From: a virus
Virus record (IMG/VR): IMGVR_UViG_3300025308_000336
Location: 1-29,213 of that record
DNA: 29,213 nt
Reading direction: 5' to 3' (one strand)
The translations under genes were made by a program, and so were the position numbers. The notes under the pieces were generated by a model that saw only the letters and a program-made list of their open reading frames with translations, was not told where the DNA came from and did not search any database. Every line of letters starts with the position of its first letter. Within the stretch, counting starts at the first letter, position 1. Below, in pieces: positions 7,366-29,213 of the stretch.

Positions 7366-8058
7366 TTAAACCGCAACATCAAGTTTATCGATTCCAAATT
7401 CCTCAGAAGGAGTGCCAACTAACGAAGCGCGTAAGCTTTCAAATCGATTGCTAACCAAATCATAAACTCCAACAGGAACAGAATGATGAATAGTTTCAGG
7501 AGCAGTCTCCGGAACAGTGGTTGGAGTAGCATAAGCCCAAGGCGAATTCCCATAAGAAAGATCACCCCAAGGATTAGGATCATAAACATCTCTAATATTT
7601 CTGACAAATTTCTTACCGGAAATGATCGTTTTCGTATTTCCGTCTTTATCAAAAACATCATCAACCGTGATCTGTATGTAAACATCTTTGATATAATATT
7701 GAAGCGGGTGCAAGTTGATCGTACAAAGTTCATTCTTGAACTTTTCGATTTGAAATCTTGAATACATCTGAATTGATTCGATACTGAATTCAAAATCATA
7801 TCCTCTCTGAAATTCAGATCCATCCCCCAATCTTCGAACATTTGGAGTGAGTTTAACCTTTACACCGGCTTCGGGGAAATAACCGAAATTCAACATTTTA
7901 TTGTTCCCGGCTGTGACGAAGGCATTTTCTTCAACCGTACCTCCTTGAGCGGTAGTTCTTGCATAAAGATTTTGATTTGTTTGGATCAAAACATCTGAGA
8001 TAAAAGCATTAAGGACTTTGTCTTTATCCCTTTTCAGATTTATAACTTGTAATGCCAT
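7366..8058 (-). CDS. Putative major tail (tube) protein
   Basis: 230 residues, with alternating beta strands through residues 10-150 and a Pro/Ala-rich linker (residues about 165-195) before a short C-terminal domain. I do not recognise a named family. The assignment rests on its size, beta-rich content, place between the neck/lysis genes and the chaperone/tape measure genes, and the strong hairpin terminator immediately downstream, as expected for a highly expressed structural gene. It could instead be another virion protein. Confidence in being a real gene is high, in the role only moderate. Confidence 0.45.
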   Translation of the reverse strand: MALQVINLKRDKDKVLNAFISDVLIQTNQNLYARTTAQGGTVEENAFVTAGNNKMLNFGYFPEAGVKVKLTPNVRRLGDGSEFQRGYDFEFSIESIQMYSRFQIEKFKNELCTINLHPLQYYIKDVYIQITVDDVFDKDGNTKTIISGKKFVRNIRDVYDPNPWGDLSYGNSPWAYATPTTVPETAPETIHHSVPVGVYDLVSNRFESLRASLVGTPSEEFGIDKLDVAV

Positions 8059-8085
8059 AGAAAAACTCCTATTAAAAAATGATAA

Positions 8086-8436
8086 TTAGTTTAACGCTAA
8101 AAGAAAGAGACTGAAAACAATAGCTGTCACAGTTGAACCAAAGAGAAAATTATTATACCACGAAGGAGTTAACTCAGTCACTAAACTTTTGTACGATGTT
8201 TCTTTCTGAATGAATAATGTTTCTTTTGTCTTATACTCCAAAATGATTTTCGCATACTGTGATAACTGTACAGAATTCAAAGAATCTTGTTCTACAAGAA
8301 AATCATGTTCATTAAGAGCATTAGCGATCTGTCTTAGCTCATCACTAGTTAAATTGTTGGACTGAGCGTAAGTCTTGTAGTTGCTTCCTAATAAAACGAA
8401 CAAGAGAAGTATCATTATGGAGCGAATCGATTTCAT
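8086..8436 (-). CDS. Secreted/membrane lysis-associated protein (possible spanin partner)
   Basis: 116 residues. Residues 1-25 look like a signal peptide (hydrophobic ILLLFVLLG, then KTYAQ with a signal peptidase I type site). Residues 26-90 are charged and helical. Residues about 93-116 form a C-terminal membrane segment. The start lies inside the upstream spanin-like gene in another frame, overlapping it by 92 bases, an arrangement like Rz/Rz1. There is no lipobox cysteine, so it is not a standard outer-membrane o-spanin lipoprotein. Neighbours are the endolysin and small membrane proteins. Confidence 0.5.
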   Translation of the reverse strand: MKSIRSIMILLLFVLLGSNYKTYAQSNNLTSDELRQIANALNEHDFLVEQDSLNSVQLSQYAKIILEYKTKETLFIQKETSYKSLVTELTPSWYNNFLFGSTVTAIVFSLFLLALN

Positions 8437-8683
8437 AAAATTTCTGTGTGTAATAATTTTTAATTTCTGTTTTTTTATTAGTTATGATCTGAACACTATC
8501 TAACCGCGATTGTGTTACTCCATTAATTGAATCAATCTGGACAGTAAGTGACCGGATTGATTTTTCTAAACTGATTTTGTTGGTATCGCTTTTCATGTTA
8601 ATGATCGCAAGCAAATAAATATTGAATATGACCAAGATCAGCAAAGCAATGAATGAAACAATATGAAAAGGTTTAATTTGCAT
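8345..8683 (-). CDS. Inner-membrane spanin-like protein (Rz-like)
   Basis: 112 residues when started at the ATG at 8683, which overlaps the endolysin stop (TAATG) and has GGAG six bases upstream. An in-frame GTG lies 12 bases earlier. One N-terminal membrane segment (residues about 5-28) is followed by a periplasmic coiled-coil-like helix rich in Lys, Ser, Asp and Gln. This matches the shape of i-spanins, which connect inner to outer membrane during lysis of diderm hosts. No sequence family is recognised; the call rests on topology and place in the lysis cluster. Confidence 0.55.
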   Translation of the reverse strand: MQIKPFHIVSFIALLILVIFNIYLLAIINMKSDTNKISLEKSIRSLTVQIDSINGVTQSRLDSVQIITNKKTEIKNYYTQKFYEIDSLHNDTSLVRFIRKQLQDLRSVQQFN

Positions 8684-9141
8684 TATCCTCTCCACACCGC
8701 CGGGGAAAGTCTTCCTAACAATCCTCTGGTATCGATATGCAGGAATGTTTCATACAACCCGATTCCACAAAGCAAATGATTTACTCTGAATAGTTTACCA
8801 TGAAAAGTAAAATCGAGATAATATTTCCCTCTGATCAAATCATTGAAAATATTTTCTAATTGATTAAACGTATATCCTTCTGGTGCAAAATCAAAAGCGT
8901 TAAAAACAAGATGCAATGAATTAGTTTTCCCTTTAACCTCTGCATTATGATGCTTATCCCGATAAGTAGAATGAACGATAATCGGTTTACCGATACTTGT
9001 TCTAATCATCTGCAGCAGCTTCAAAGTTGGTGCAATATTCGGGATAAGATTAACCGGAATATTCTTTTCGGGGTAACCGTTCAGAATTTCTTCTTCAGAG
9101 AAATTCACAATATTATTTGCAGCTATAATTTCTTTAATCAT
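8683..9141 (-). CDS. Endolysin, M15 (Peptidase_M15_3-like) D-Ala-D-Ala peptidase
   Basis: 152 residues. The zinc-ligand pattern of M15 peptidases is visible: SLHLVFNAFDF with H77 and D84, and HID with H135 and D137. The arginine-containing segment STYRDKHHN lies near residues 58-66. These enzymes cut peptide cross-links in peptidoglycan. There is no signal peptide, so it needs a holin for export, which fits the small membrane genes directly upstream. The start overlaps the stop of the 52-residue gene (TAATG), and the stop overlaps the start of the spanin-like gene. Confidence 0.85.
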   Translation of the reverse strand: MIKEIIAANNIVNFSEEEILNGYPEKNIPVNLIPNIAPTLKLLQMIRTSIGKPIIVHSTYRDKHHNAEVKGKTNSLHLVFNAFDFAPEGYTFNQLENIFNDLIRGKYYLDFTFHGKLFRVNHLLCGIGLYETFLHIDTRGLLGRLSPAVWRG

Positions 9142-9299
9142 TACTTATTAAAATCCTTAGCGTTCAGTAATCCCAAACCCGAAACTAAAAAGGGCGATGC
9201 AGTTACCCAATCCATCGATCTAAACCCAATCAATAAACCAAATCCAATTGACAGAAGACCAAAGAAAGAAGTTTTCCAATGAGATAAAAAGTTTTTCAT
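9141..9299 (-). CDS. Small membrane protein, holin candidate
   Basis: 52 residues: MKNFLSHWKTSFFGLLSIG and onward, ending GLGLLNAKDFNK. It has a hydrophobic helix at about residues 12-26 and a second short hydrophobic stretch at about residues 34-46. The start codon overlaps the stop of the 95-residue gene upstream, and its stop overlaps the endolysin start, both as TAATG, so it is embedded in a translationally coupled lysis cluster. The small size, membrane character and position directly before the endolysin suggest a holin or holin accessory. No family is recognised. Confidence 0.6.
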   Translation of the reverse strand: MKNFLSHWKTSFFGLLSIGFGLLIGFRSMDWVTASPFLVSGLGLLNAKDFNK

Positions 9300-9586
9300 T
9301 AGCCTACTCTCTTTAAGATTTCTTTAACATCAGATTCAACGGTTGTTAATTTCTTTTCGATGTTTTCAACTTTCGTTTCAAGACGAGCGCCGGAAACATT
9401 AGAATAAGAAGTTTGATTGCTCGCATGCATAGCAATTTTATTATCAATTAATTCAGCAGCTTCAACTCTATCAATTTTATTTTTCATTTGAGTTTTGATC
9501 ACTCCATAATTGACACCTATTAAAACGGTGGAAGTAAGGATAAACCCAAAATTTTGGTGCAAGAATTGTGAGATAGTTAATTCCAT
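9299..9586 (-). CDS. Membrane-anchored coiled-coil protein of the lysis cluster
   Basis: 95 residues. A membrane segment spans residues about 13-31. From residue 35 to the end it is a charged helix, and the last 25 residues (TKVENIEKKLTTVESDVKEI) form a clear heptad coiled coil. The shape resembles haemolysin XhlA-type or holin-accessory proteins, though those often carry the membrane segment at the other end. The stop codon overlaps the next start. It may be a holin, an anti-holin or a spanin-like factor. Confidence 0.5.
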   Translation of the reverse strand: MELTISQFLHQNFGFILTSTVLIGVNYGVIKTQMKNKIDRVEAAELIDNKIAMHASNQTSYSNVSGARLETKVENIEKKLTTVESDVKEILKRVG

Positions 9587-9600
9587 AAATATTTTCTTGA

Positions 9601-10026
9601 TTAAACTATTTGAGTAAAAGAATATTCAGTTTCAAAAAAGATCGAATGCTCAAAAACCCCATATTTATCTTTGTATTGTTTCAGTTCATCCTTCATGATT
9701 CTGAAAGGTTTCATCTTGGCTTCGTTCATATTAGTTCCATTGATCAATGAAACAACATCATTAAAGACTACTAACGATTGATCATCTTGAATTAAACTTT
9801 GATAAATAACCGACACTTTGAATTGAGGTTTCGCTACAACATTTGAAGGAAGATTTATGTTATTCTGTGAATAAGAATAAATCGAACCTTCGTAAGACAA
9901 AAGAACACTTCCCGAAGTGATCAAACTTTCATCTATCGTCATGCTACTTTTCAAGTAGGGAAAGAGGAAAGTTTGCGCTTCAAGAATCACGGAAAGAAAA
10001 GCTTTCAGTACTAAAGGATTAATCAT
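9601..10026 (-). CDS. Putative head-tail joining/neck protein (Mu gp37 position)
   Basis: 141 residues from the ATG at 10026. An in-frame start 36 bases earlier is less likely, since it would lie deep in the upstream gene; GAGG lies ten bases before the preferred start. It overlaps the stop of the DUF1320-type gene by 8 bases. In Mu-like head operons the gene after the gp36-type protein encodes a gp37-type neck or tail-terminator protein, and the size and mixed alpha/beta sequence fit, but I cannot recognise the family from the sequence alone. Confidence 0.45.
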   Translation of the reverse strand: MINPLVLKAFLSVILEAQTFLFPYLKSSMTIDESLITSGSVLLSYEGSIYSYSQNNINLPSNVVAKPQFKVSVIYQSLIQDDQSLVVFNDVVSLINGTNMNEAKMKPFRIMKDELKQYKDKYGVFEHSIFFETEYSFTQIV

Positions 10027-10456
10027 AATCGAATAACCTCGTTTCTTCAATAGCAACTTCACTAACTGAAGAGTTCACAAACTGAGGTAATGAAAGAGCA
10101 TCTAACTTTTGTTGATTTATCGCCAAAAGATTTTCTCTATGCTCTATGCAAGCATCCTTAATTGATGACGGAACAGGGAGGACGCCTCTCCGTTTATAAA
10201 CAAATTCAGCAGTGAAGTCATTAACCATATTTTGAACGAGAACAGAATCAAAATCGGGATTCGATAAATAAAGAGATATATCAGCTTCAGCTTGCTTGAT
10301 ACATTGATCCAAACGCAAGGAACAGACATCTGGAGTCACTGATACAAGGGCATCATCAGATAAATTAATTGTATTAACTAATCGCTTCTCATCATTCAAA
10401 AGATTGATTATCAAATCTTTTGAATAAAATTTAAGGAATCCCGAAATTGACTGCAT
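10019..10456 (-). CDS. DUF1320 / Mu gp36-like head completion protein
   Basis: 145 residues. The arrangement FYSKDLIINLL near the start, then LDQCIKQAEADISLYLSN and later MVNDFTAEFVYKRRG followed by a terminal helix, is the usual pattern of DUF1320 (gp36 of Mu-like phages) and similar head-tail connector proteins with a helical bundle. It probably caps the portal vertex. It is the fourth gene after the capsid gene, as in Mu-type clusters. It starts 12 bases after the cement-type gene. Confidence 0.75.
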   Translation of the reverse strand: MQSISGFLKFYSKDLIINLLNDEKRLVNTINLSDDALVSVTPDVCSLRLDQCIKQAEADISLYLSNPDFDSVLVQNMVNDFTAEFVYKRRGVLPVPSSIKDACIEHRENLLAINQQKLDALSLPQFVNSSVSEVAIEETRLFDYD

Positions 10457-10468
10457 ATGACTTTCAGA

Positions 10469-10891
10469 TTAAACGAGTTTAACTCTGACAAGTTGATCTG
10501 CTGCAGTGGCTTCATCCAAAGCATATCCATTAATAGCTTGCGGTAAAACAGAACCCGCAAGAGTGATCGGGGGCGTAGCAGCAGAAGAAGTAACCGCAAC
10601 AGCGCCGTCAGCATTAACAGCAGAAAAAGTAGTCGCAGCGATTGCTTTACCGGCAGCGTTGCTTGCCAAAGCAGCACCGATTGAAAAAGTTGCTCCCGAT
10701 TTAACAATAGCGATACCAGAAACAGCAACAGGAGCTTGTTCATCCAGTAACACGTTTTCAGCTAAGACTCCAAGAGCCTTTTCATTTGCGGCACAAAGAG
10801 CGCCGGTAAAACCAATAAAAAGGTTTTTCTTTGCAGATAGATCAACGGCTGCTTTGATTGAAGTCGTAAGAATTATTTGTTCGGTTTTCAT
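10469..10891 (-). CDS. DUF2190-like capsid cement/decoration protein
   Basis: 140 residues, strongly enriched in Ala, Val, Gly and Thr. The pattern KAAVDLSAKKNLFIGFTGA, then EKALGVLAENVLLDEQAPVA, then GIAIVKSGATFSIGAALASN, matches the DUF2190 style of small capsid-stabilising proteins (parallel in role to lambda gpD). It follows the major capsid gene by one gene. No membrane segment despite the hydrophobic composition. A Leu-rich reading in another frame of the same DNA is a shadow. Confidence 0.75.
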   Translation of the reverse strand: MKTEQIILTTSIKAAVDLSAKKNLFIGFTGALCAANEKALGVLAENVLLDEQAPVAVSGIAIVKSGATFSIGAALASNAAGKAIAATTFSAVNADGAVAVTSSAATPPITLAGSVLPQAINGYALDEATAADQLVRVKLV

Positions 10892-10945
10892 TTAACATTC
10901 TCCATAAAATTGATTTGTCACAAATAGTAATTAAAAAATATCACG

Positions 10946-11218
10946 TTAGTTTTTTCTCTGTCTTCCGCGTCCGGGTTTTGAGCTGATAGTTTCCGGTTCA
11001 ATCTGAACGGACGGGGGGACATCAGCTTCATTTACCGGAACTAAAAAAGAAGAGAACGCCGGTTCAAAGAAATCTACGATCGAGCCTTCACGGATTATCT
11101 TTTTATTTCTGTAAAGATCGGTGTCAACGACTTTATAATATTTCTTCTTCGGAATCTGTCCCGACGATCGGGGTAAATCGCCGGGTGAATTTGTTGCAAC
11201 TAAATTCTCTTGTACCAT
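10946..11218 (-). CDS. Small head-region protein, FluMu gp35-like
   Basis: 90 residues. The core YYKVVDTDLYRNKKIIREGS resembles the short beta barrel of FluMu gp35-type proteins (a K-V-x-D-x-x-x-R-x-G-x-x-x-x-x-G pattern). The C terminus is a basic, disordered tail (GRGRQRKN). It lies between capsid and cement genes. The function is unknown; a decoration or maturation role is inferred from place only. Confidence 0.5.
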   Translation of the reverse strand: MVQENLVATNSPGDLPRSSGQIPKKKYYKVVDTDLYRNKKIIREGSIVDFFEPAFSSFLVPVNEADVPPSVQIEPETISSKPGRGRQRKN

Positions 11219-11253
11219 GATAAACTCTCTTTTTTTTGATAGTCAGCGAATAG

Positions 11254-12177
11254 TTATGAGTTAGTATCGTTGATTAAAAAACCGGCGTCAGCTCCAACAA
11301 TGAGCGCCTGGAAGATGTCGGTATTTCTAACGAACTCAACTTTGTTCCCTTCACCGGAATAAACGTCAACGATAGGGAAATTCCTTTTCTTGAACGTATA
11401 ACCAAACGAAGGTTCATACAAACTTCTTTCAACATTAGTAGCTTGTCCCGGAATGTAGGCAAGGATAACATTATCTCCCCAAACATCTGCGAACACATCA
11501 TCATCGGAAGAGTAGACAGCTTCACCGATAAAAAGATTTGGGATCTCCAGGAGAGCTGCAAGAAGAGCCGGAGTCATGATGGCATGCTGGGTATAACGGA
11601 TCTTCTCCAAAATCTTTGGATGATTTTTCAATGAAGAATAAGCGGAAGCTCCGATTATCGCAACATTAGGACGTTTAGCGATCTTCCCTCGAACAGCTTC
11701 TTTGGCAGACTCAAAAACATGAATAGGGTTACTTGCATCATTATCAAACTTATCACCGGCAGCAAGAGTCACTTTATTGCCGGTAGGGAAAGAATTAAGA
11801 TTCTGAACAAGATCAGCAACTTGTTTTTCAAGACGAAGTTTTATCGTTTCAGTGGTTACATGAGTTGCATAGACTTTTAAGTTTCGGATATCCTCAGCTA
11901 CTTCACGGTAATCCATCGGATAAGCGATATCATGTTCAGTTAACGAATAGGGGAGAGTATTGATCCCTTCCGGATTGATAACATTTGAATTTGCCCGAAT
12001 AGCTCTTTCCGTGTTGTAAATTTTAAAAGCTTCTTTGTTGAACAAAGGAACTTTCCCTCCTTCTTTTTCAACAAACACTTCAGGGAAGAGTTGAGAAGCA
12101 ACTAAATTCGGTTGCGAAAACCCTCTTGCAAGGGAAGTTAATACCGGATCAACGATTCTTTTATTTAAGAGCGACAT
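11254..12177 (-). CDS. Major capsid protein (HK97-fold, Mu/phage E-type)
   Basis: 307 residues. The N-terminal segment (PNLVASQLFPEVFVEKEGGK), the central helix-rich domain with a KRPNVAIIGASAYSSLKNHP element, and the C-terminal part (DNVILAYIPGQA, then EPSFGYTFKKRNFPIV, then VRNTDIFQALIVGADAGFLI) follow the pattern of Mu-like and lambda gpE-like capsid proteins. It lies directly downstream of the protease/scaffold gene. A CCCGCC/GGCGGG hairpin lies in the leader, and GAGG precedes the start by about six bases. Confidence 0.88.
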   Translation of the reverse strand: MSLLNKRIVDPVLTSLARGFSQPNLVASQLFPEVFVEKEGGKVPLFNKEAFKIYNTERAIRANSNVINPEGINTLPYSLTEHDIAYPMDYREVAEDIRNLKVYATHVTTETIKLRLEKQVADLVQNLNSFPTGNKVTLAAGDKFDNDASNPIHVFESAKEAVRGKIAKRPNVAIIGASAYSSLKNHPKILEKIRYTQHAIMTPALLAALLEIPNLFIGEAVYSSDDDVFADVWGDNVILAYIPGQATNVERSLYEPSFGYTFKKRNFPIVDVYSGEGNKVEFVRNTDIFQALIVGADAGFLINDTNS

Positions 12178-13366: not shown

Positions 13367-13774
13367 ATGGAACCTATTATTCAGGAAGATGATCAAAAAC
13401 CGGAACGAAAGAAAACCGAACCGGTTATTCTTAACCAAAGGCAAATAAAAAATATGGCTAAATGGGGTTTGTCAAATAGGATAATAGCGGATATCGTTGG
13501 TTGTGATGAAAAAACCATTCGTAATAAATACGGCGATATAATTAAAAGGGGAAAAGCGGAATTAAAAAGGAAGCTTATCCATAAAGTAATCGAGAAAGCT
13601 TTGAAAGGGGATAACGTAATGCTTATATGGGCAACTAAAAATGAATGTGGTTGGTCTGATACACCAACGATTAGTACAAATCAATCTCTTACTGTAGTTA
13701 AAACAACCGTTAATACTAATTCAACGGGACAAGTAGAAATAAAAAACGAAACAAAAGAGATTGAACCGACATGA
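13367..13774 (+). CDS. terS: Terminase small subunit-like DNA-binding protein
   Basis: 135 residues from the ATG at 13367; a GTG seven codons earlier falls inside the proposed promoter. Residues about 20-60 carry a helix-turn-helix (RQIKNMAKWGLSNRIIADIV then DEKTIRNKYGDII) followed by KRGKAELKRKLIHKVIEKAL, the pattern of small terminase or transposase-like HTH proteins. The ensuing LIWATKNECGWSD motif is common in small terminase subunits of Mu-type packaging clusters. The C terminus is Thr/Asn/Glu-rich. Its last bases overlap the large terminase start (ATGA). Confidence 0.75.
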   Translation: MEPIIQEDDQKPERKKTEPVILNQRQIKNMAKWGLSNRIIADIVGCDEKTIRNKYGDIIKRGKAELKRKLIHKVIEKALKGDNVMLIWATKNECGWSDTPTISTNQSLTVVKTTVNTNSTGQVEIKNETKEIEPT

Positions 13775-15048
13775 GCGAACTTGAACTAAAATACCTTCCT
13801 AAACAATCTGAACTATTTGAAGATCCCGCAAGATTCAAAGTTGTTGGAAAAGGACGCCGTTTCGGACTTACACGCGGAATGGCGCTTCATGTGATAGAGA
13901 ATTGTATCGATGGGATTACTCCTACGCTGTGGGTTGATACCGTGAACTCAAACATCGAAAGGTATTTTGACCGATATTTTTTACCGGTACTGAAAGCACT
14001 GCCAAAAACCGCTTGGAAATACAACCGGCAAAAAGGGGAGTTAAAGATTTACAATTCAGTAGTCGATTTCCGTTCTGCAGAATCACCCGAAAACATTGAA
14101 GGGTTCGGATACAGATTGATCATCATTAATGAAGCGGGAATAATCCTAAAGAACCGCCGTTTATGGGAAGAAAGTATTCGTCCGATGGTGATGGATTTCG
14201 GTGCGAAAGTTATCATCGGCGGTACACCGAAAGGGAGAAAATACAAAGGAGAAAAACATTTATTCTATGAACTTCATCAAAGAGGGTTAGCTGACGGTGT
14301 TCGATGGAAGTCATTTAATTATTCAACCTATGATAATCCATTACTCAGCAAGTTAGATGTTGACGAAGCTGTTTCAGAAATTTCTCCAGCTCTGAGGGAC
14401 CAGGAAATCTACGGAAAATTTATTGACACTTTCGCAAAAGGAATAATTCGTAAAGAATGGCTGCCAACATTTGATTATGATTTCCGGTCACGTCCGGTCA
14501 GAAAAATTATTCAAGCTTGGGACACCGCTTTCAAAGCGAAAGAAGAAAATGATTATTCAGTATGTCAAACATGGGCTTTGATGGAAGATGAAATATTACT
14601 TGTTCATCAATGGGCGGGGAAAGTAGAATTTCCCGAGCTGAAAATAAAATTCAAAGAATTGTATTATGAAATACCGGGGGTTGAGGAAGTTCTTATCGAA
14701 GATAAGGCTTCCGGTCAATCACTCATTCAAGAAATGGAAAGAGACACAAACATTCCAATTGTAAAAATTAAACCCGACACAGATAAAATAAGCCGAGTAC
14801 ATGCAGTTACTCCAATTATGGCGCAAGGGAAAGTTAAGATTTACAAATATCTCGATTACCTTGATTTATTTTATGAACAAAGTGAAGAGTTTCCAAATGC
14901 CGAACATGATGATATAGTTGATGATATGAGTCAATCTCTAATATATCTTAAACCATTATTAGGAATTGTGAGCAACATAGATCACGTTTCCGCGCCATTA
15001 AACATGAATTCTCTTACCATGAATTATAAAAATTTATTTTTTAATTAA
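13771..15048 (+). CDS. terL: Terminase large subunit (packaging ATPase and nuclease)
   Basis: 425 residues. The ATPase half has an atypical Walker A region at about 26-35 (GKGRRFGLTR, with Leu where GKT-type sites have Lys), a Walker B at 116-123 (LIIINEAG) and a coupling motif IIGGTPKG at 148-155. The RNase H-like nuclease half has WDTA with D251, VLIEDKASG with E310/D311 and HDDIVDD with D380/D381. It translocates and cuts concatemeric DNA at the portal. It overlaps the small subunit by four bases and is followed by the portal gene after 20 bases. Confidence 0.9.
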   Translation: MSELELKYLPKQSELFEDPARFKVVGKGRRFGLTRGMALHVIENCIDGITPTLWVDTVNSNIERYFDRYFLPVLKALPKTAWKYNRQKGELKIYNSVVDFRSAESPENIEGFGYRLIIINEAGIILKNRRLWEESIRPMVMDFGAKVIIGGTPKGRKYKGEKHLFYELHQRGLADGVRWKSFNYSTYDNPLLSKLDVDEAVSEISPALRDQEIYGKFIDTFAKGIIRKEWLPTFDYDFRSRPVRKIIQAWDTAFKAKEENDYSVCQTWALMEDEILLVHQWAGKVEFPELKIKFKELYYEIPGVEEVLIEDKASGQSLIQEMERDTNIPIVKIKPDTDKISRVHAVTPIMAQGKVKIYKYLDYLDLFYEQSEEFPNAEHDDIVDDMSQSLIYLKPLLGIVSNIDHVSAPLNMNSLTMNYKNLFFN

Positions 15049-15068: not shown

Positions 15069-16241
15069 GTGAAACATGTATTAATACAAGAAATTGCAAC
15101 GAGAAAGAATAACGCGTTCTATTCCTCACTGATTGCAATTCTACCCGATCCGGATTTAATTGTTCAAGGTTATGCTAAACCGATAGAACATTACAAGAAA
15201 CTTTTGAACGATGGGAGGCTATCATCTGCAATTACAAAAAGAAAAGCTTTTGTGAAATCAATGGTTTATGAATTCTTGGAGAAGAAAAAGAATACTGATG
15301 AAATTAAGAAATTATTCAAATCGCTGCCGGTAGATGAATTGATTGAACAAGCCTTAGATGCGGTTTATTTTGGTTATACAGTACATGAGATAATTTGGGA
15401 ATTCAGAGAAAATAAATTCATGCCAAAGGTGATTACGGAAAAACCGCAAGATTGGTTTGCGTTCAATACGGAAAATGTTTTGAAATTAAAAAATCAAAAG
15501 AAATTTAATGAGCTAATAGACTTACCAGATTTCAAATTTATCTTATCTCAACACAAACCGACATACACAAATCCTTATGGCGATAAACTTATAAAAAAAT
15601 GTTATTGGTGGGTAAAGTTAAAAGCAAATACAGTTGAATATTGGTCATTTTTCGTTGAAAAATTTGGTTCGGGTTTTATTGAAGCTGAATTACCGGTTTC
15701 AATTTATGAGTCTAAAAAAGATGAAGTTCTCGCTGACTTAATTGCATTGAGAAAAACCGGCGCTATTGTAAAAAGAGAAGGTACGAAACTAGGTATTCTT
15801 GAATCAAAAACTAAAGGAGGTAGTACATCAACATTCAAAGAATTCAAAGATGATATGAGCGAGGAAATAGAGATAGCAATAATGACCGAAACGCTTAGTC
15901 AAATATCAAAAGCAACAGGAAGTTATGCTCAATCAAAAACAATTAAAGAAATAATTGAAACAGTAGTTGACGGCGATAAGAAAATAGTAGAAAAGTTCTT
16001 CAATACGCTTATCGATTATTACAATGTCTTGAATTACGGGAATATTGAAACAACAAAATTTATGCTATTTTCTAAGAAAGAAATTGACAAAGAACTTGCT
16101 GATAGGGATAAGATTCTAACTGAACAAGGTGTTGAATTCTCTAAAGATTATTACATGAAGAACTATAATTTGAAAGATGGGGATTTTGTATTAAAAAATA
16201 GGGGGGATAAAAATAAAAAGGTGGAAAATCCGGCGGTATAA
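15069..16241 (+). CDS. Portal protein, DUF935 / Mu gp29 family
   Basis: 390 residues. The pattern LPDPDLIVQGYAKPIEHYKKL, then SAITKRKAFV, then VYFGYTVHEIIWE, then PQDWFAFN matches DUF935 portal proteins. Further on, the segment KFGSGFIEAELP and the SQISKATGSYAQSKTIKEII helix also fit. The protein forms the dodecameric vertex through which DNA enters. It ends the rightward packaging module. The MuF/gp30-type head morphogenesis gene that usually follows in Mu-like clusters is absent; non-coding DNA follows. Confidence 0.88.
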   Translation: MKHVLIQEIATRKNNAFYSSLIAILPDPDLIVQGYAKPIEHYKKLLNDGRLSSAITKRKAFVKSMVYEFLEKKKNTDEIKKLFKSLPVDELIEQALDAVYFGYTVHEIIWEFRENKFMPKVITEKPQDWFAFNTENVLKLKNQKKFNELIDLPDFKFILSQHKPTYTNPYGDKLIKKCYWWVKLKANTVEYWSFFVEKFGSGFIEAELPVSIYESKKDEVLADLIALRKTGAIVKREGTKLGILESKTKGGSTSTFKEFKDDMSEEIEIAIMTETLSQISKATGSYAQSKTIKEIIETVVDGDKKIVEKFFNTLIDYYNVLNYGNIETTKFMLFSKKEIDKELADRDKILTEQGVEFSKDYYMKNYNLKDGDFVLKNRGDKNKKVENPAV

Positions 16242-16543: not shown

Positions 16544-16990
16544 TTAAAAGCAATCCTCGATAGAAACAGGGTTCTCTTCAAGTAATCTTTCCCATAAATC
16601 GCCATCTCGATAATCACAATCACTATATTCATTGTCAATCAATCCCAAAAAACGAGAATCTTCATATGATGGGAATTCAATATGATTATTTGTTAATAAA
16701 ACTTGCAAATCGTTTATGTAAATATACAAATGACCGTTATCAATGTTAAGATCATCAATTGAGTTATCAGCGTTATCAAGTCTTTTTTCAAGTTGGGAAA
16801 TGTAGTGATCTTTTTTAACGATTTTATCATAGAGGATATTTAATCTTTCATCAGGAATGAAAATAAGAATAAATTTACCTTCTTGCATGTAATAGCCGTA
16901 AGAAGTAAAGATAGAACAGAATAGGTCAAATGATTTAGCAGTAACGAAATTTACTGTAGAACGAACGATTGAGGTTAATAGATTTTTCAT
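16544..16990 (-). CDS. Unknown small protein with conserved ERLLEENP-type C-terminal tail
   Basis: 148 residues, unrecognised. Residues 15-50 are hydrophobic and aromatic but not a clean membrane helix. Residues 60-90 form a charged, coiled-coil-prone helix. The end, LWERLLEENPVSIEDCF, matches the last residues of the neighbouring 76-residue protein (MYERWLEESPVNLEDCF). AAAGGATC eight bases before the start is a good ribosome binding site, so it is probably translated. The three small genes here form a leftward group between the packaging module and the stem-loop region; the role is unknown, possibly host takeover. Confidence 0.6.
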   Translation of the reverse strand: MKNLLTSIVRSTVNFVTAKSFDLFCSIFTSYGYYMQEGKFILIFIPDERLNILYDKIVKKDHYISQLEKRLDNADNSIDDLNIDNGHLYIYINDLQVLLTNNHIEFPSYEDSRFLGLIDNEYSDCDYRDGDLWERLLEENPVSIEDCF

Positions 16991-17043
16991 GATATGATCC
17001 TTTGTTTAGAATTTATAAATATGATTAAGAAATTTTGATGTAA

Positions 17044-17274
17044 TTAAAAACAATCCTCTAAATTAACCGGAGATTCTTCTAACCATCTCTCATACATTGT
17101 TTTTGCATCTAAAATCTGACCTTCCTCACTTGTATCGATTCCGCCATCATCGTAACAATCTTTTGGCTGTCCAATGTCTTTAAAATTGATGTTATTGAAA
17201 ATATTTAATGATTTATTTAATTGAAATTCGTCATTTGGGAAATCATTGCGATAGTCATTTGATGTAGTTTTCAT
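17044..17274 (-). CDS. Unknown small acidic protein with the same C-terminal tail
   Basis: 76 residues, acidic and Asn/Asp-rich, probably largely disordered apart from the C-terminal helix. The last 17 residues (MYERWLEESPVNLEDCF) match the end of the 148-residue neighbour, both finishing EDCF at the stop codon, while the rest of the two proteins is unrelated. AAAGG lies about nine bases before the start. A shared terminal peptide on otherwise different proteins suggests a common partner, or degradation or localisation signal. Confidence 0.6.
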   Translation of the reverse strand: MKTTSNDYRNDFPNDEFQLNKSLNIFNNINFKDIGQPKDCYDDGGIDTSEEGQILDAKTMYERWLEESPVNLEDCF

Positions 17275-17311
17275 GATTGAAACCTTTGATATGTAGTTTA
17301 TTGAAATTTAT

Positions 17312-17542
17312 TTAATTAAGAACAATGCTTGCAACTGACGAAATTATCTTACGGTTGAATGAATCAATAGAGGCATCATTTAACGCAATTTCGAATTCAG
17401 ATGCCGTTACTGTATGAATGAAATTTGAGAAGGAAAGATCATTACGGACTAATCTTGAAACTGATGTTTTTTGATCATCTAGAAGTAGAGCATCCATATA
17501 ATCTAGCACAACGCTAACGATTTGAGATAATTTATTATTCAT
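17312..17542 (-). CDS. Unknown small protein
   Basis: 76 residues from the ATG at 17542, which has AAAAGGA about ten bases upstream. The frame is open a further 35 codons, but without a ribosome binding site. Predicted helical (SQIVSVVLDYMDALLLDDQK, then VSRLVRNDLSFSNFIHTV and a terminal helix), soluble and compact. It lacks the EDCF tail of the two following genes. No family is recognised. It is the first gene of the three-gene group. Confidence 0.55.
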   Translation of the reverse strand: MNNKLSQIVSVVLDYMDALLLDDQKTSVSRLVRNDLSFSNFIHTVTASEFEIALNDASIDSFNRKIISSVASIVLN

Positions 17543-17900
17543 GATGTTTTTTCCTTTTTGTAATGGATTAAATGTTAATAAAAATTTAGAAATTAAAGTC
17601 TTTTGTATATTCCAGATTTTGTGAATTATTAAACTTCTCGTGAACAAGGATGTTTTGAAATTATGCTATTTCGATTTATCTAGTATTTGCTTGCTATTCA
17701 GGTAACATCAGAACAGAAATTTAATGGAGAATTTTCAGGTCAAAGGATCAGTTTCAGAGCTTGCATCCTTCATGTCTTGTTGCGTTGGTAGTTTCCGGTA
17801 CTCCAACAAACGATTTATCTCTAAGTATTCTACCTTAGAGAGTTTCGAGTCCGCCAGCTTTTCAAAGAACATTTTTTATATGGCATGCGCTTGTTTTGCC

Positions 17901-17973
17901 AGGTGTTGTAAATGCGAAAAAATCTGCCGGGATGCGATTAGCGGTGGTAGATTTTTTTGTATTTACAATACCT
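17901..17973 (+). ncRNA. 28-bp stem-loop (hairpin 1) with GCGATTAGC loop
   Basis: Bases 17901-17928 pair with 17946-17973 without a single mismatch if G-U is allowed. Wobbles are at 17905/17969, 17914/17960, 17916/17958 and 17926/17948, always G on the left and U on the right. The 17-base loop contains GCGATTAGC at 17934-17942, in which GC pairs GC around GATTA. Confidence 0.85.
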
Positions 17974-18128
17974 TACAGTTGGTTAATGAAGAAAGAAAAA
18001 TTGTGAAGAAAGTAACTCGGAACAAAGATGGCAAAACTAAATTATCGCCAAAAAAATGTTCTGAAAAGCTGAAGCGGACGGACACTGTAAGGGAAAGTGT
18101 AAGAGATTAATTGTGGGAGAATTGGGAA

Positions 18129-18203
18129 CGTATAAAAGCGTTGGGAAGCTGAAAACTATACGCGCCGCTTTCCGCAAAAAAGCACAAAAAGGAAGAAAGC
18201 GGC
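18129..18203 (+). ncRNA. Paired stems CGTATA/TATACG and GCCGCTTTC/GAAAGCGGC
   Basis: CGTATA at 18129-18134 pairs with TATACG at 18157-18162. Directly after it GCCGCTTTC at 18164-18172 pairs perfectly (9 bp) with GAAAGCGGC at 18195-18203 around an A-rich loop. Both belong to the stem-loop region. Confidence 0.65.
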
Positions 18204-18209
18204 ATTCCG

Positions 18210-18264
18210 GAGGTTTGGCGTGGTTTTTAAGCGATTAGCAAAAGAAAAACCATGTACAAACCTC
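18210..18264 (+). ncRNA. 19-bp stem-loop (hairpin 2) with GCGATTAGC loop
   Basis: Bases 18210-18228 pair with 18245-18264 with one bulged A (18256). G-U pairs are at 18218/18255 and 18220/18253. The loop contains GCGATTAGC at 18231-18239. The 16 bases from there (GCGATTAGCAAAAGAA) recur exactly in the integrase gene at 28220. Confidence 0.8.
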
Positions 18265-18282
18265 ATTTGTATTTGCAGCTAA

Positions 18283-18473
18283 GGGAGGGGCAAAAATAGG
18301 TAGTTTGCATAATGTCTCTTTATTTTGCGGACACTTCAACTACCCCTATTAAGTCCGCAAAATAATACCGCATTATGTAAAGGGAATAAGGTAAAATTTC
18401 TTTGTACTCCAGCATTTGTCCTACATAAAAATTTTACCGTTTCCCGTACTACCGTTAAGTTTTTGCCCCTTCC
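18283..18473 (+). ncRNA. Three-way junction RNA domain
   Basis: A closing stem of 14 bp (18283-18296 with 18460-18473, one G-U) continues as GGTAGT/ACTACC (18299-18304 with 18448-18453). It encloses two arms. Arm 1: 18304-18314 with 18371-18381, then ATTTTGCGGAC/GTCCGCAAAAT at 18322-18332 and 18353-18363. Arm 2: GGGAA/TTCCC at 18382-18386 and 18441-18445, then 18390-18406 with 18422-18438. All helices nest. Confidence 0.75.
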
Positions 18474-18525
18474 GTTGCCTTTTGTTATTAAAAAAACTTT
18501 CCTTTCTTTCAAATATTTTACGACA

Positions 18526-18581
18526 ATAAAACGGAATAGCTTAAACCATGATTAGAGGTTTAAGAGGGAATTCCGTTTTAT
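18526..18581 (+). ncRNA. 20-bp stem-loop (hairpin 3) with GATTA loop
   Basis: Bases 18526-18537 pair with 18570-18581 (12 bp perfect). After an asymmetric internal loop 18540-18547 pair with 18557-18564 (8 bp perfect). The nine-base loop ATGATTAGA again centres on GATTA. Confidence 0.8.
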
Positions 18582-18619
18582 ACAAGATGAAGCCGATGTA
18601 GCTAAAAAGAGTGTCGGGA

Positions 18620-18669
18620 GGATTGGCGGAATTCTTGCATGCGATTAGCGGAAAGAATTGTGCCGATCC
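18620..18669 (+). ncRNA. 17-position stem-loop (hairpin 4) with GCGATTAGC loop
   Basis: Bases 18620-18636 pair with 18653-18669, with one G-G mismatch and G-U pairs at 18624/18665 and 18628/18661. The loop contains GCGATTAGC at 18641-18649. Confidence 0.75.
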
Positions 18670-18811
18670 GATGGGTGTCGTAAGAGAAAGGTTGTTTGAT
18701 CAGGCAAAGAGAATGGGATAGAAACATACTGGACGCGCGAAGCGCGGACGATAAGAGTTCGCGGCAATATCTGCGTTAGAATAACATTACCAATCGCAAA
18801 CCCGAACATTT

Positions 18812-20242
18812 CTAAATTGGGAATTCAAGCTGTTCATGTTCAGGAGGTTCATGATGCGATGGAGATGAAATTTGCTGCCATTCTTCCGGTTTATAATGAA
18901 CATCTTCAAAGGTATGAATTGGTTTCAGGTAACGTAAACGAGTAAGCCCGGTTAATCCTCCACGATTCTTAGCGATTATCACCTCAAAATATTCTTTTCT
19001 GTCCAAGAGAGATTCATCATTGCAATAAAGTTCTTTAGTTTTATCAGCATAGGGATTGATGCCGTAATAGTCAGGGCAATGAAGTAAAAGAACTTGCCTT
19101 GCATCTTGTTCAATGGCGCCGGATTCCCGGAGATCTGAAAGCTGGGGACGTTTATCATGTCTTGTTTCGTTATTTCGATTCAACTGACTTAGCAAAATGA
19201 TCGGTGTTCCAGTGGTTTTCGCAAACTTCCGAAATTCTTCTGAGATTTGCGCGACGATCAAATCATTTCTTGAAATGACTTTCTCTTTTGTCTCATCTGC
19301 TTTGATCAGTTGCATATAATCGATGAAGATTGCATCCACCTTGTGCTGTACCTTCCATTTATTGATAGTAGCCATGATCTTCTTAGGTGTTTGGTGTGAA
19401 TCCTCGTCTATTTGGTAGTTTTTCGCTCTAAGACGATCTGTGGCGTTTTCTATGGCAGCCATTTCAGTTATTCCGATTTTCCCGGATTCAATCAAGACTG
19501 AATTTATCTGAGTCATTGCTGAAATATCTCGAACCAATAAACTTTCTGCATCCATCTCTATGGAGATGATTCCGGTTTTATAGCCTTGTAAGGTCAGATT
19601 CCGATTGCATTGCTGCATAAATGCGGTTTTACCAATACCCGGTCTGGCTCCGATGACACAAACAGATTTCTTGTGAAAACCGATTATGATGTTATCGAGA
19701 TTCTTTATTCCGCTCGGAATATATTGGTGTGACTTACCGGCTCTGGATTCACGGATATTAGTTATTAATTCATCGATGGATTGGTCCATAGACTTATCCA
19801 TGACATATTTCTGGAAATATTTGTAAATGATCTTTGTAATTCTGTCATTCACATCATGCGCTAAATCTAATCCTAAGAGATTAGATGTCTGAATGTCATT
19901 TGCGATTAACGCTAAATCGTTTGAAACATTCTGATCGAGTAAGTGTTTTACAAATGGCATTATCTGCAATTCGTAAGAGGACTGACCAAGGAAAAGAACG
20001 AAATTTTTCAACTCTTTGTTTTTGCTTGGCATTAAAAAAGTGTAAAGGTCAACATGGTTCGGGAACTTGTTAAACTCAAACACATATTTCAGCGCAACAT
20101 TGAAAGCATCTTTGCATAACTGAGAGAGAAAGATATCATCAGTTAATCCGAACGAAATTACATCTGCAAAATTATTTTCTGTTTGAAGGATCGAAGCAAT
20201 GATTTTCTTTTCATAAGCGAAGCGTTCTTTTGCATCCATCAT
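18812..20242 (-). CDS. dnaB: Replicative DNA helicase, DnaB family
   Basis: 476 residues. An N-terminal helical domain (residues 1-110) of the DnaB type is followed by a RecA-like core: Walker A GARPGIGKT at 198-206, SIEMDAESL at about 227-235, Walker B IFIDYMQL at 305-312, the SQLNR sensor at 352-356 and the DLRESGAIEQDA segment at 370-381. It unwinds the phage DNA ahead of the fork. The start overlaps the stop of the initiator-like gene upstream (ATGA), so the two are coupled, as in other phages where a loader precedes the helicase. The C terminus is Pro/Glu/His-rich. Confidence 0.92.
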   Translation of the reverse strand: MMDAKERFAYEKKIIASILQTENNFADVISFGLTDDIFLSQLCKDAFNVALKYVFEFNKFPNHVDLYTFLMPSKNKELKNFVLFLGQSSYELQIMPFVKHLLDQNVSNDLALIANDIQTSNLLGLDLAHDVNDRITKIIYKYFQKYVMDKSMDQSIDELITNIRESRAGKSHQYIPSGIKNLDNIIIGFHKKSVCVIGARPGIGKTAFMQQCNRNLTLQGYKTGIISIEMDAESLLVRDISAMTQINSVLIESGKIGITEMAAIENATDRLRAKNYQIDEDSHQTPKKIMATINKWKVQHKVDAIFIDYMQLIKADETKEKVISRNDLIVAQISEEFRKFAKTTGTPIILLSQLNRNNETRHDKRPQLSDLRESGAIEQDARQVLLLHCPDYYGINPYADKTKELYCNDESLLDRKEYFEVIIAKNRGGLTGLTRLRYLKPIHTFEDVHYKPEEWQQISSPSHHEPPEHEQLEFPI

Positions 20243-28109: not shown

Positions 28110-29213
28110 ATGGCTCAAATAATCTCTCGTAATAATAAACTTTATCTTCGGTATTATGATAAAATAACCGGCAAAAAAAAAGATAAAGCTTTAGGTTTAT
28201 CAAATAATCGGGATGGTTTGCGATTAGCAAAAGAACAAAAAAAGCTTTTTGAAGCCAATTTATTAGAGAAATATTATTCATTAAATACGATTATTAAGAA
28301 TCGACTGAGTATTGATGAAGCTGCAGAAATATTTCATGAAGTGAAAAAACATGCTGCAGGTACTATGGAAGTAATGAAATTGGCAATCGGTCATTTGAAA
28401 GAGGCAACCGGTAAAAAATATGTAGCTGACCTGGACCGGATGGATTTTAGGAAATTCAGCGTTTATTTATCAAAATATATCAGCAAAGATAAGGTAAATA
28501 AAAAGACAGAAGTTGTCACACAAGGGAAACTGTTATCGGCTAATACAAAGTCTATTTATTCCAGATCACTCCGGAACTTCTTTGGATGGCTTAAAAGCGA
28601 AAAGTATGTTAAAGAGAATCATGTGATACTGGAAAAAGGGGAAACAAAGCAGATAGAAATTATTCCCGATATTGCTTTTTCAGAAATAAAATCTTATCTT
28701 TGGAACCTTAATAAAAACGGCTATTATTTCGTGCGATTGCTCGAATTGACCGGGCTTAGAAAGTCTTCCGCTTTGTCACTGAGGTGGGAGCAAATTGATT
28801 TTGAAAAGAAAGTTCTTTTAATCGATAACATTAAAAAGAACAGGCAATTTATCTTTCCTCTAACGGAGGAAATTATTTTGTTGCTTACTGAAATTGGAAT
28901 TCAAAGCTTCGGTAAAATTTTTACTTATACTTCGGATGGTTTACATTTTTGGTATCGAGCACAAGAAAAATTAAATATAAAAAAACCATATGGACTTCAT
29001 CAAATTAGAAAAACCTTTATTTCTAATTTAGTAAATGATGGAGTTCTACTGTCTGATGTAGCGACATTAGCAGATCATCGAAGCATACAAACGACTCAAC
29101 AATATTATGTTAAGTCGAACATTGAAAGATTGAGATTATTGTTGGACGGGAAAAAACCTTCCCCCCAACCTTCCCCCCAAATGGTACGCAACGAGGTACA
29201 ATCTGGGATATAG
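28110..29213 (+). CDS. Phage integrase, tyrosine recombinase
   Basis: 367 residues. An N-terminal arm-binding-like region (residues 1-60) and core-binding domain (65-170) precede the catalytic domain with R217 (ELTGLRKSSALSLRW), probable K243, H297 and R300 (LHQIRKTF), H323 (ADHRSIQTT) and the tyrosine at 332/333 (QQYYVK). All catalytic residues appear intact. It drives site-specific integration, with the excisionase-like protein for excision. GAGGTGA precedes the start. The last 18 residues (PSPQPSPQMVRNEVQSGI) are low-complexity and come from a tandem ACCTTCCCCCC repeat, unlike normal integrase ends. Confidence 0.92.
   Translation: MAQIISRNNKLYLRYYDKITGKKKDKALGLSNNRDGLRLAKEQKKLFEANLLEKYYSLNTIIKNRLSIDEAAEIFHEVKKHAAGTMEVMKLAIGHLKEATGKKYVADLDRMDFRKFSVYLSKYISKDKVNKKTEVVTQGKLLSANTKSIYSRSLRNFFGWLKSEKYVKENHVILEKGETKQIEIIPDIAFSEIKSYLWNLNKNGYYFVRLLELTGLRKSSALSLRWEQIDFEKKVLLIDNIKKNRQFIFPLTEEIILLLTEIGIQSFGKIFTYTSDGLHFWYRAQEKLNIKKPYGLHQIRKTFISNLVNDGVLLSDVATLADHRSIQTTQQYYVKSNIERLRLLLDGKKPSPQPSPQMVRNEVQSGI

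Follow-up and report, generated by a model that had tools for sequence, protein, structure and literature searches.

The locus considered here raises the question of what is encoded by a region of about 1 kb that lies between the portal and helicase genes of a virus and contains no credible gene. From its letters, the region had been predicted to specify a large structured RNA with plus-strand polarity, similar in size to GOLLD or ROOL. The window, that is, the whole stretch of DNA that was analysed, corresponds to one complete IMG/VR record (29,213 bases), in which the following genes set the scene.

13771-15048, large terminase subunit (Pfam Terminase_6C)
15069..16241, plus strand, Mu-type portal gene, 5' of the RNA and in the same direction (Pfam Portal_Mu, 3e-69)
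16544-17647, minus strand, three small ORFs between the portal gene and the RNA region
18812..20242, minus strand, DnaB-type helicase gene, convergent with the RNA (Pfam DnaB_C, 1.5e-66)
28110-29213, tyrosine integrase gene (Pfam)

Because a terminase, a Mu-type portal, DnaB and an integrase were recognised by Pfam, the window was assigned to a temperate tailed phage. The RNA region was flanked by the three minus-strand ORFs and by the helicase gene, which occupied its 3' side and left no defence cargo there. No tRNA genes were found in the window.

Coding potential and fold of the region

Two ORFs overlapped the region, and both were judged spurious.

17724..18110, plus strand, 128 codons, without a Pfam match and without a homologue among the compared loci
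18325..18555, plus strand, 76 codons, broken in the homologous phage described below by a stop codon and by indels of 1, 1 and 2 bases

The prediction that the region lacks a credible gene was thus borne out, and a conserved protein, which had been named as evidence against an RNA, was looked for and no conserved reading frame was found in either ORF.

The plus strand of positions 17786-18745 was predicted to fold with -344.6 kcal/mol (z -13.3, with 0 of 20 shuffles as stable), and the minus strand with -277.9 kcal/mol (z -9.7). Inverted repeats of 28, 29, 24, 22, 19 and 12 nt were found within 17855-18581, in approximate agreement with the nested stems of 28, 20, 19, 17 and 14 pairs described originally, exact lengths varying with the way in which bulges are counted. 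The region was divided into the following parts.

17786..18145, plus strand, 5' domain, consisting of a single long nested rod and restricted to the window phage (z -11.5 on the plus strand, -8.4 on the minus strand)
17901..17973, plus strand, 28-bp stem with GCGATTAGC (17934-17942) in its apical loop (29 pairs, 5 G-U, 0 A-C)
18146..18606, plus strand, conserved RNA core of 460 nt (z -8.8)
18210..18264, plus strand, core hairpin with the loop GCGATTAGC (18231-18239)
18283..18473, plus strand, central domain, a three-way junction closed by the helix GGGAGGGGCAAAAAU (18283-18297) / 18459-18473, its pairs kept in the homologue
18299-18303 / 18449-18453, plus strand, inner helix GGUAG / CUACC of the central domain, its pairs kept in the homologue
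18304..18381, plus strand, hairpin UUUGCAUAAUG...CAUUAUGUAAA, with a second helix at 18320-18332/18353-18365
18383..18445, plus strand, third hairpin of the junction, with the strongest compensatory changes
18526..18581, plus strand, core hairpin whose loop contains GATTAG (18550)
18620..18669, plus strand, 3' hairpin with the loop GCGATTAGC (18641-18649), not kept in the homologue

The conserved portion stopped near 18606, and the 3' end (18590-18790) gave a z of -3.6 on the plus strand. The sequence GCGATTAGC occurred three times within 716 nt (at 17934, 18231 and 18641), compared with 0.07 occurrences expected in the whole window. Since this loop is common to the 5' domain, the core and the 3' hairpin, it suggests that these parts belong together.

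The predicted excess of plus-strand wobble pairs was found as far as its direction was concerned. The predicted folds of 17786-18745 contained 37 G-U pairs on the plus strand versus 11 on the minus strand, and stems chosen neutrally with respect to strand (those with at least 10 Watson-Crick pairs) contained 7 G-U versus 2 A-C positions, one of the latter being in a probably accidental stem. The bias came mostly from the 5' rod; in the core, G-U pairs were balanced (10 versus 9 in the plus and minus folds). As stand-alone proof of transcription, the bias did not hold, because a folded single strand of DNA gives the same bias. A folded-DNA recombination site was therefore taken as the main rival explanation, and it is considered below together with the relevant relatives. 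Simple scans revealed no convincing promoter or terminator.

Base pairing in the core and comparison with known RNAs

The sole close homologue, reached via a helicase search, was the phage IMGVR_UViG_3300014208_000080 (L002, also L123), which was 90% identical to the window in the terminase and 80-83% in the helicase. Close-relative terminase or helicase queries returned this single sister phage and little else. The core was located at the same place and on the same relative strand in L002, with 82% identity over 416 nt. Covarying pairs had been predicted for homologues, and 9 of the 123 predicted pairs were indeed changed on both sides between the window and L002, while none of the 123 was broken by substitution. 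Three adjacent double-changed pairs were located in one hairpin (18383..18445), where GGU/ACC was replaced by AUC/GAU. The 20-nt apical loop at 18333-18352 was invariant between the two phages and its stem covaried. As judged from this comparison, the 460-nt core was shown to be under selection for base pairing, as the original prediction had proposed for the RNA; with one close homologue, the covariation of the window's own core is that of two sequences. The L002 stretch that matched the 5' rod folded no better than shuffles (z -0.6). Because the rod has no counterpart in L002, the window RNA can be described as a conserved core with a lineage-specific 5' domain and a 3' hairpin.

Decaying DNA palindromes or repeats of the MITE or REP type were considered as a source of the helices, and the 5' rod at least, being a single near-perfect inverted repeat that is absent from L002, may be such an insertion. 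As an account of the region this is very unlikely, given that the G-U bias was strongest in the rod, that the core contained compensatory changes, that no second copy of the region was present elsewhere in the contig, and that a blastn search of 50,697 phages and 72,556 plasmids gave no match to the region.

In L002, two proteins whose C-termini bear sorting motifs of the T9SS type were encoded between the RNA and the portal gene (7801-11280); they are probable lysogenic cargo and suggest Ignavibacteria-like hosts. Prophages with a terminase identity of about 50% (L137, L138/L139) had no large noncoding gap at the corresponding place.

The region had not been identified as either GOLLD or ROOL, and a search with the covariance models of Rfam agreed with this: the window gave no match at the gathering threshold and none up to E 10, GOLLD, ROOL, OLE and HEARO included. 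The RNA of a relative gave no Rfam match up to E 1. No description of the window RNA was found in the literature. GOLLD is carried by phages and prophages, is often over 800 nt long and has an ornate fold; besides a conserved part it has a 5' part of lower conservation, and its linker sometimes contains tRNA cargo (PMC12286853). ROOL, which is also borne by phages and prophages, has a complex fold with kissing loops; the example with a solved structure is about 660 nt long (PMC12286853). The window RNA resembles both in being phage-borne and large; it shares with GOLLD the combination of a conserved part and a variable 5' part and with ROOL a complex predicted fold. It differs from GOLLD in having no covariance-model match, no tRNA and other sequence motifs. 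It differs from ROOL in the lack of a covariance-model match and in its place, which is near the portal gene (in relatives, with defence cargo as well) and not in tRNA islands. GOLLD and ROOL are often found near tRNA islands, whereas the window has no tRNA, and distant copies of the R2 family described below are located about 3-4 kb from single tRNA genes. GOLLD and ROOL form homo-oligomeric RNA cages. A divergent GOLLD or ROOL RNA would fit the phage origin, the similar size, the conserved and variable regions and the insertion-tolerant linker (as in PMC12286853); in view of the Rfam searches of the window (E up to 10) and of the relative (E up to 1), it is extremely improbable.

A covariance model of the window and L002, designated R1, was also used for searching. 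Its matches in host genomes (L145-L149, E 0.005-0.09, in 294 genomes) were rejected as chance matches by alignment, some of them being in coding sequence, and 164 genomes of one order gave no match. A 14-mer, GATGCGATTAGCGG, had at least 119 matches in IMG/VR, most of which are chance at such a length.

A probably related RNA family and the genes beside it

A deeper terminase alignment led to 80 phage loci, in several of which an extended noncoding stretch lay close to the portal gene. Six of these regions (L151, L152, L154, L155, L158 and L160) were mutually homologous. The RNAs of the related phages were 0.8-0.9 kb long, noncoding and located 3' of the portal gene on the same strand; folding z values of -5.2 (L151) and -7.0 were obtained. 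Their 3' domains covaried over long range, with 13 double-changed pairs in the six sequences. The shared central hairpin of ten phage sequences was used to build a second covariance model, R2, from which the window, L002 and L202 were left out.

The R2 hairpin has the consensus GUGCCGAGUUURYAUAA...UUAUGUAANNCUGGC, its ends being conserved, its bulges limited to single bases and its tip variable. Among 37 distinct sequences, 95.8% of the cells paired, 67 cells were double-compensated, compared with 20.4 +/- 3.7 in shuffles, and G-U exceeded A-C by 30 to 1. Sliding the pairing partners abolished the covariation signal. Of 294 genomes from one Bacteroidota class, 22 contained R2 copies, with a maximum of five in a single genome, and the 12 R2-positive genomes of a phylum-wide sample were all within those 22.

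The hairpin AGUUURYAUAAUG...CAUUAUGUAAA is common to the window, L002 and L202. The window contained the R2-like hairpin AGUUURYAUAA...UUAUGUAA and lacked the GUGCC/GGC closing helix. When 1 Mb was searched with R2, L002 (E 0.37) and the window (E 2.5) were among the next matches after the members and their antisense, below usual significance, and both matches fell exactly on the hairpin AGUUURYAUAAUG...CAUUAUGUAAA, on the same strand. With filters off, a search of 63 kb gave E 0.024 for L002 and E 0.14 for the window, the 3' side of the latter being out of register. In the L002 record alone, R2 had a single match, which fell on the RNA core in the correct orientation (E 0.0145). The best non-self match of R1 in 854 kb was L202, directly past the portal gene (E 1.2); its R2 match was weak and on the opposite strand. 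In a MAFFT alignment of the window-type and bridging sequences, the tips were misaligned. In the window, the hairpin at 18304-18381 and the portal gene at 15069-16241 are both on the plus strand, a placement as in the R2 phages with a Mu-type portal. It therefore seems rather probable, on this suggestive sequence evidence, that the window RNA is akin to the R2 family, and the hairpin at 18304..18381 is probably the homologous element. By eye, a tRNA-like remnant adjoined the RNA in L202 (about 11410-11480, minus strand).

In phages with a Mu-type portal, the RNA was located 3' of the terminase and portal genes and was co-directional with them; in L279, which has another terminase type, it was exceptionally opposite to the terminase gene. 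Variable genes on either strand followed on the 3' side of R2. PADLOC recognised, among others, 3' of the RNA in host loci, a ThsB TIR protein (1.6e-117), RmrA, AbiEii/AbiEi and AbiLi/AbiLii, and in phages a type IIG RM system (3e-278), a type III RM-like system, DUF262-type HEC systems and a TIR protein; Pfam added TIR, SIR2-like and DUF2326 domains beside the R2 RNA. Many copies in host genomes were located in tRNA-adjacent elements, beside defence genes (Thoeris TIR, AbiE, AbiL, RM). This adjacency, common and not universal, is a description of the loci examined. Phages and satellites contain defence hotspots, in which variable anti-phage systems occupy a fixed place in related elements. 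The R2 family is similar in this respect and differs in that the conserved flanking element is a structured RNA.

A tRNA gene was present approximately 2.8-4.1 kb 5' of the RNA at 10 of the 15 wider host loci, and most loci had a conserved set consisting of an SNase and two further proteins of 85-97 aa and 227 aa; in L260-L274, the 227-aa protein was encoded together with the other two, at approximately -2.0 to -1.2 kb relative to the hairpin. The 227-aa protein (MAxVxGNVLGNLSGKLGNLSARTVDGRTILAARPSSF...) had no Pfam match. A second conserved stretch, at about -3.2 to -2.0 kb, started at the tRNA gene in L260, L261, L264, L265, L267, L268 and L270; at the DNA level it was better conserved than the neighbouring gene, part of it is noncoding, and its appearance is that of a further structured RNA or of an attachment region. 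Rfam DUF3800-VIII RNA occurred near the cargo in L260 (4531-4595), L265 (7221-7284) and L270 (5886-5950). A GTA-type 3TM holin and an M15 peptidase adjoined the RNA 3' of the hairpin in L263, L274 and L262, a hint of phage or gene-transfer ancestry for the tRNA-adjacent elements. Short palindromic units GCGAATGAAGG...CCGGAATGAGCG, which may be dispersed repeats, recurred 5' of the hairpin in L239, L241 and L245. Two inserted CCTGCC...GGCAGG repeats were located within the 3' domain of the L154 RNA (approximately 8330-8365 and 8620-8645).

In L152 (10364-11518) and L155 (3646-4791), an ORF was inserted between the core hairpin and the 3' domain, and both RNA parts were kept. Such an arrangement would suit a catalytic RNA or an intron-like element with ORFs in a loop. 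This reading is highly improbable, since no Rfam intron or ribozyme matched, the inserted ORFs seemed by eye to be unrelated to homing enzymes, and the element is intergenic, so that there are no exons to join.

Possible role of the RNA

In phages with a Mu-type portal, the RNA follows terminase and portal on their strand, a position that could indicate a cis-acting RNA, one that either controls the genes around it as a leader, attenuator or antiterminator or forms the 3' end of the message for the late genes. This is quite unlikely: neighbours on the 3' side lie on either strand, the next gene in the window is convergent, three minus-strand ORFs separate the RNA from the portal gene, the RNA of L279 is opposite to the terminase gene, and the size is unusual for a leader.

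The main rival is a folded single-stranded DNA site, in which a recombinase would use the hairpins to gain or swap cargo, in the manner of an oversized integron attC. An attC site, which adjoins exchangeable genes, folds from one specific strand into a hairpin that has bulged bases and a tip that varies. The R2 hairpin shares these features: its ends are conserved, its bulges single and its tip variable, it flanks changing defence cargo in differing backgrounds, and wobble on one strand (G-T) suits folded DNA as well as RNA. However, the structured region of 0.5-0.9 kb, with long-range nested helices and several domains, is much larger than attC, it occurs as one copy per element and not in an array, no integron integrase was noticed nearby, and the window copy has no adjoining cargo. 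A DNA site of this kind is therefore considered unlikely.

The region is a real and probably new large structured RNA. By analogy, it is most likely a trans-acting, ornate phage RNA like GOLLD and ROOL that belongs to neither family. A temperate phage would encode a plus-strand, multi-domain noncoding RNA (about 17786-18670), probably a fast-diverging member, on suggestive evidence, of a large-RNA family found in related phages and in tRNA-adjacent elements. The RNA would be transcribed and, once folded, may act in trans, as GOLLD and ROOL are thought to; its recurring loops (GCGATTAGC, present three times, and the invariant 20-nt loop with AACUACC) may bind a protein or other copies of the RNA. 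In view of the resemblance to GOLLD and ROOL (large size, phage origin, a conserved and a variable part, an insertion-tolerant linker), an RNA scaffold or a multimer is the foremost hypothesis. The window copy indicates that the RNA does not depend on cargo, and because the RNA persists without it there, the defence cargo of the relatives would be a tolerated passenger. For this reading as a whole, comprising a plus-strand multi-domain RNA with a selected core, R2-type kin, trans-acting loops and passenger cargo, a probability of about 0.6 is estimated.

It may also be proposed, tentatively and as something more doubtful than probable, that the RNAs form an undescribed and widespread family that is a core component of a set of phages and tRNA-adjacent mobile elements in the Bacteroidota class and that marks, and perhaps organises or regulates, defence cargo, the window being a divergent copy free of cargo. 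Only a handful of large ornate RNA classes have been described from phages, and the roles of GOLLD and ROOL have yet to be settled. An additional family that shows covariation of its own and is found repeatedly beside defence genes would offer an independent system for studying the function of such RNAs, and the R2 covariance model makes this family searchable.
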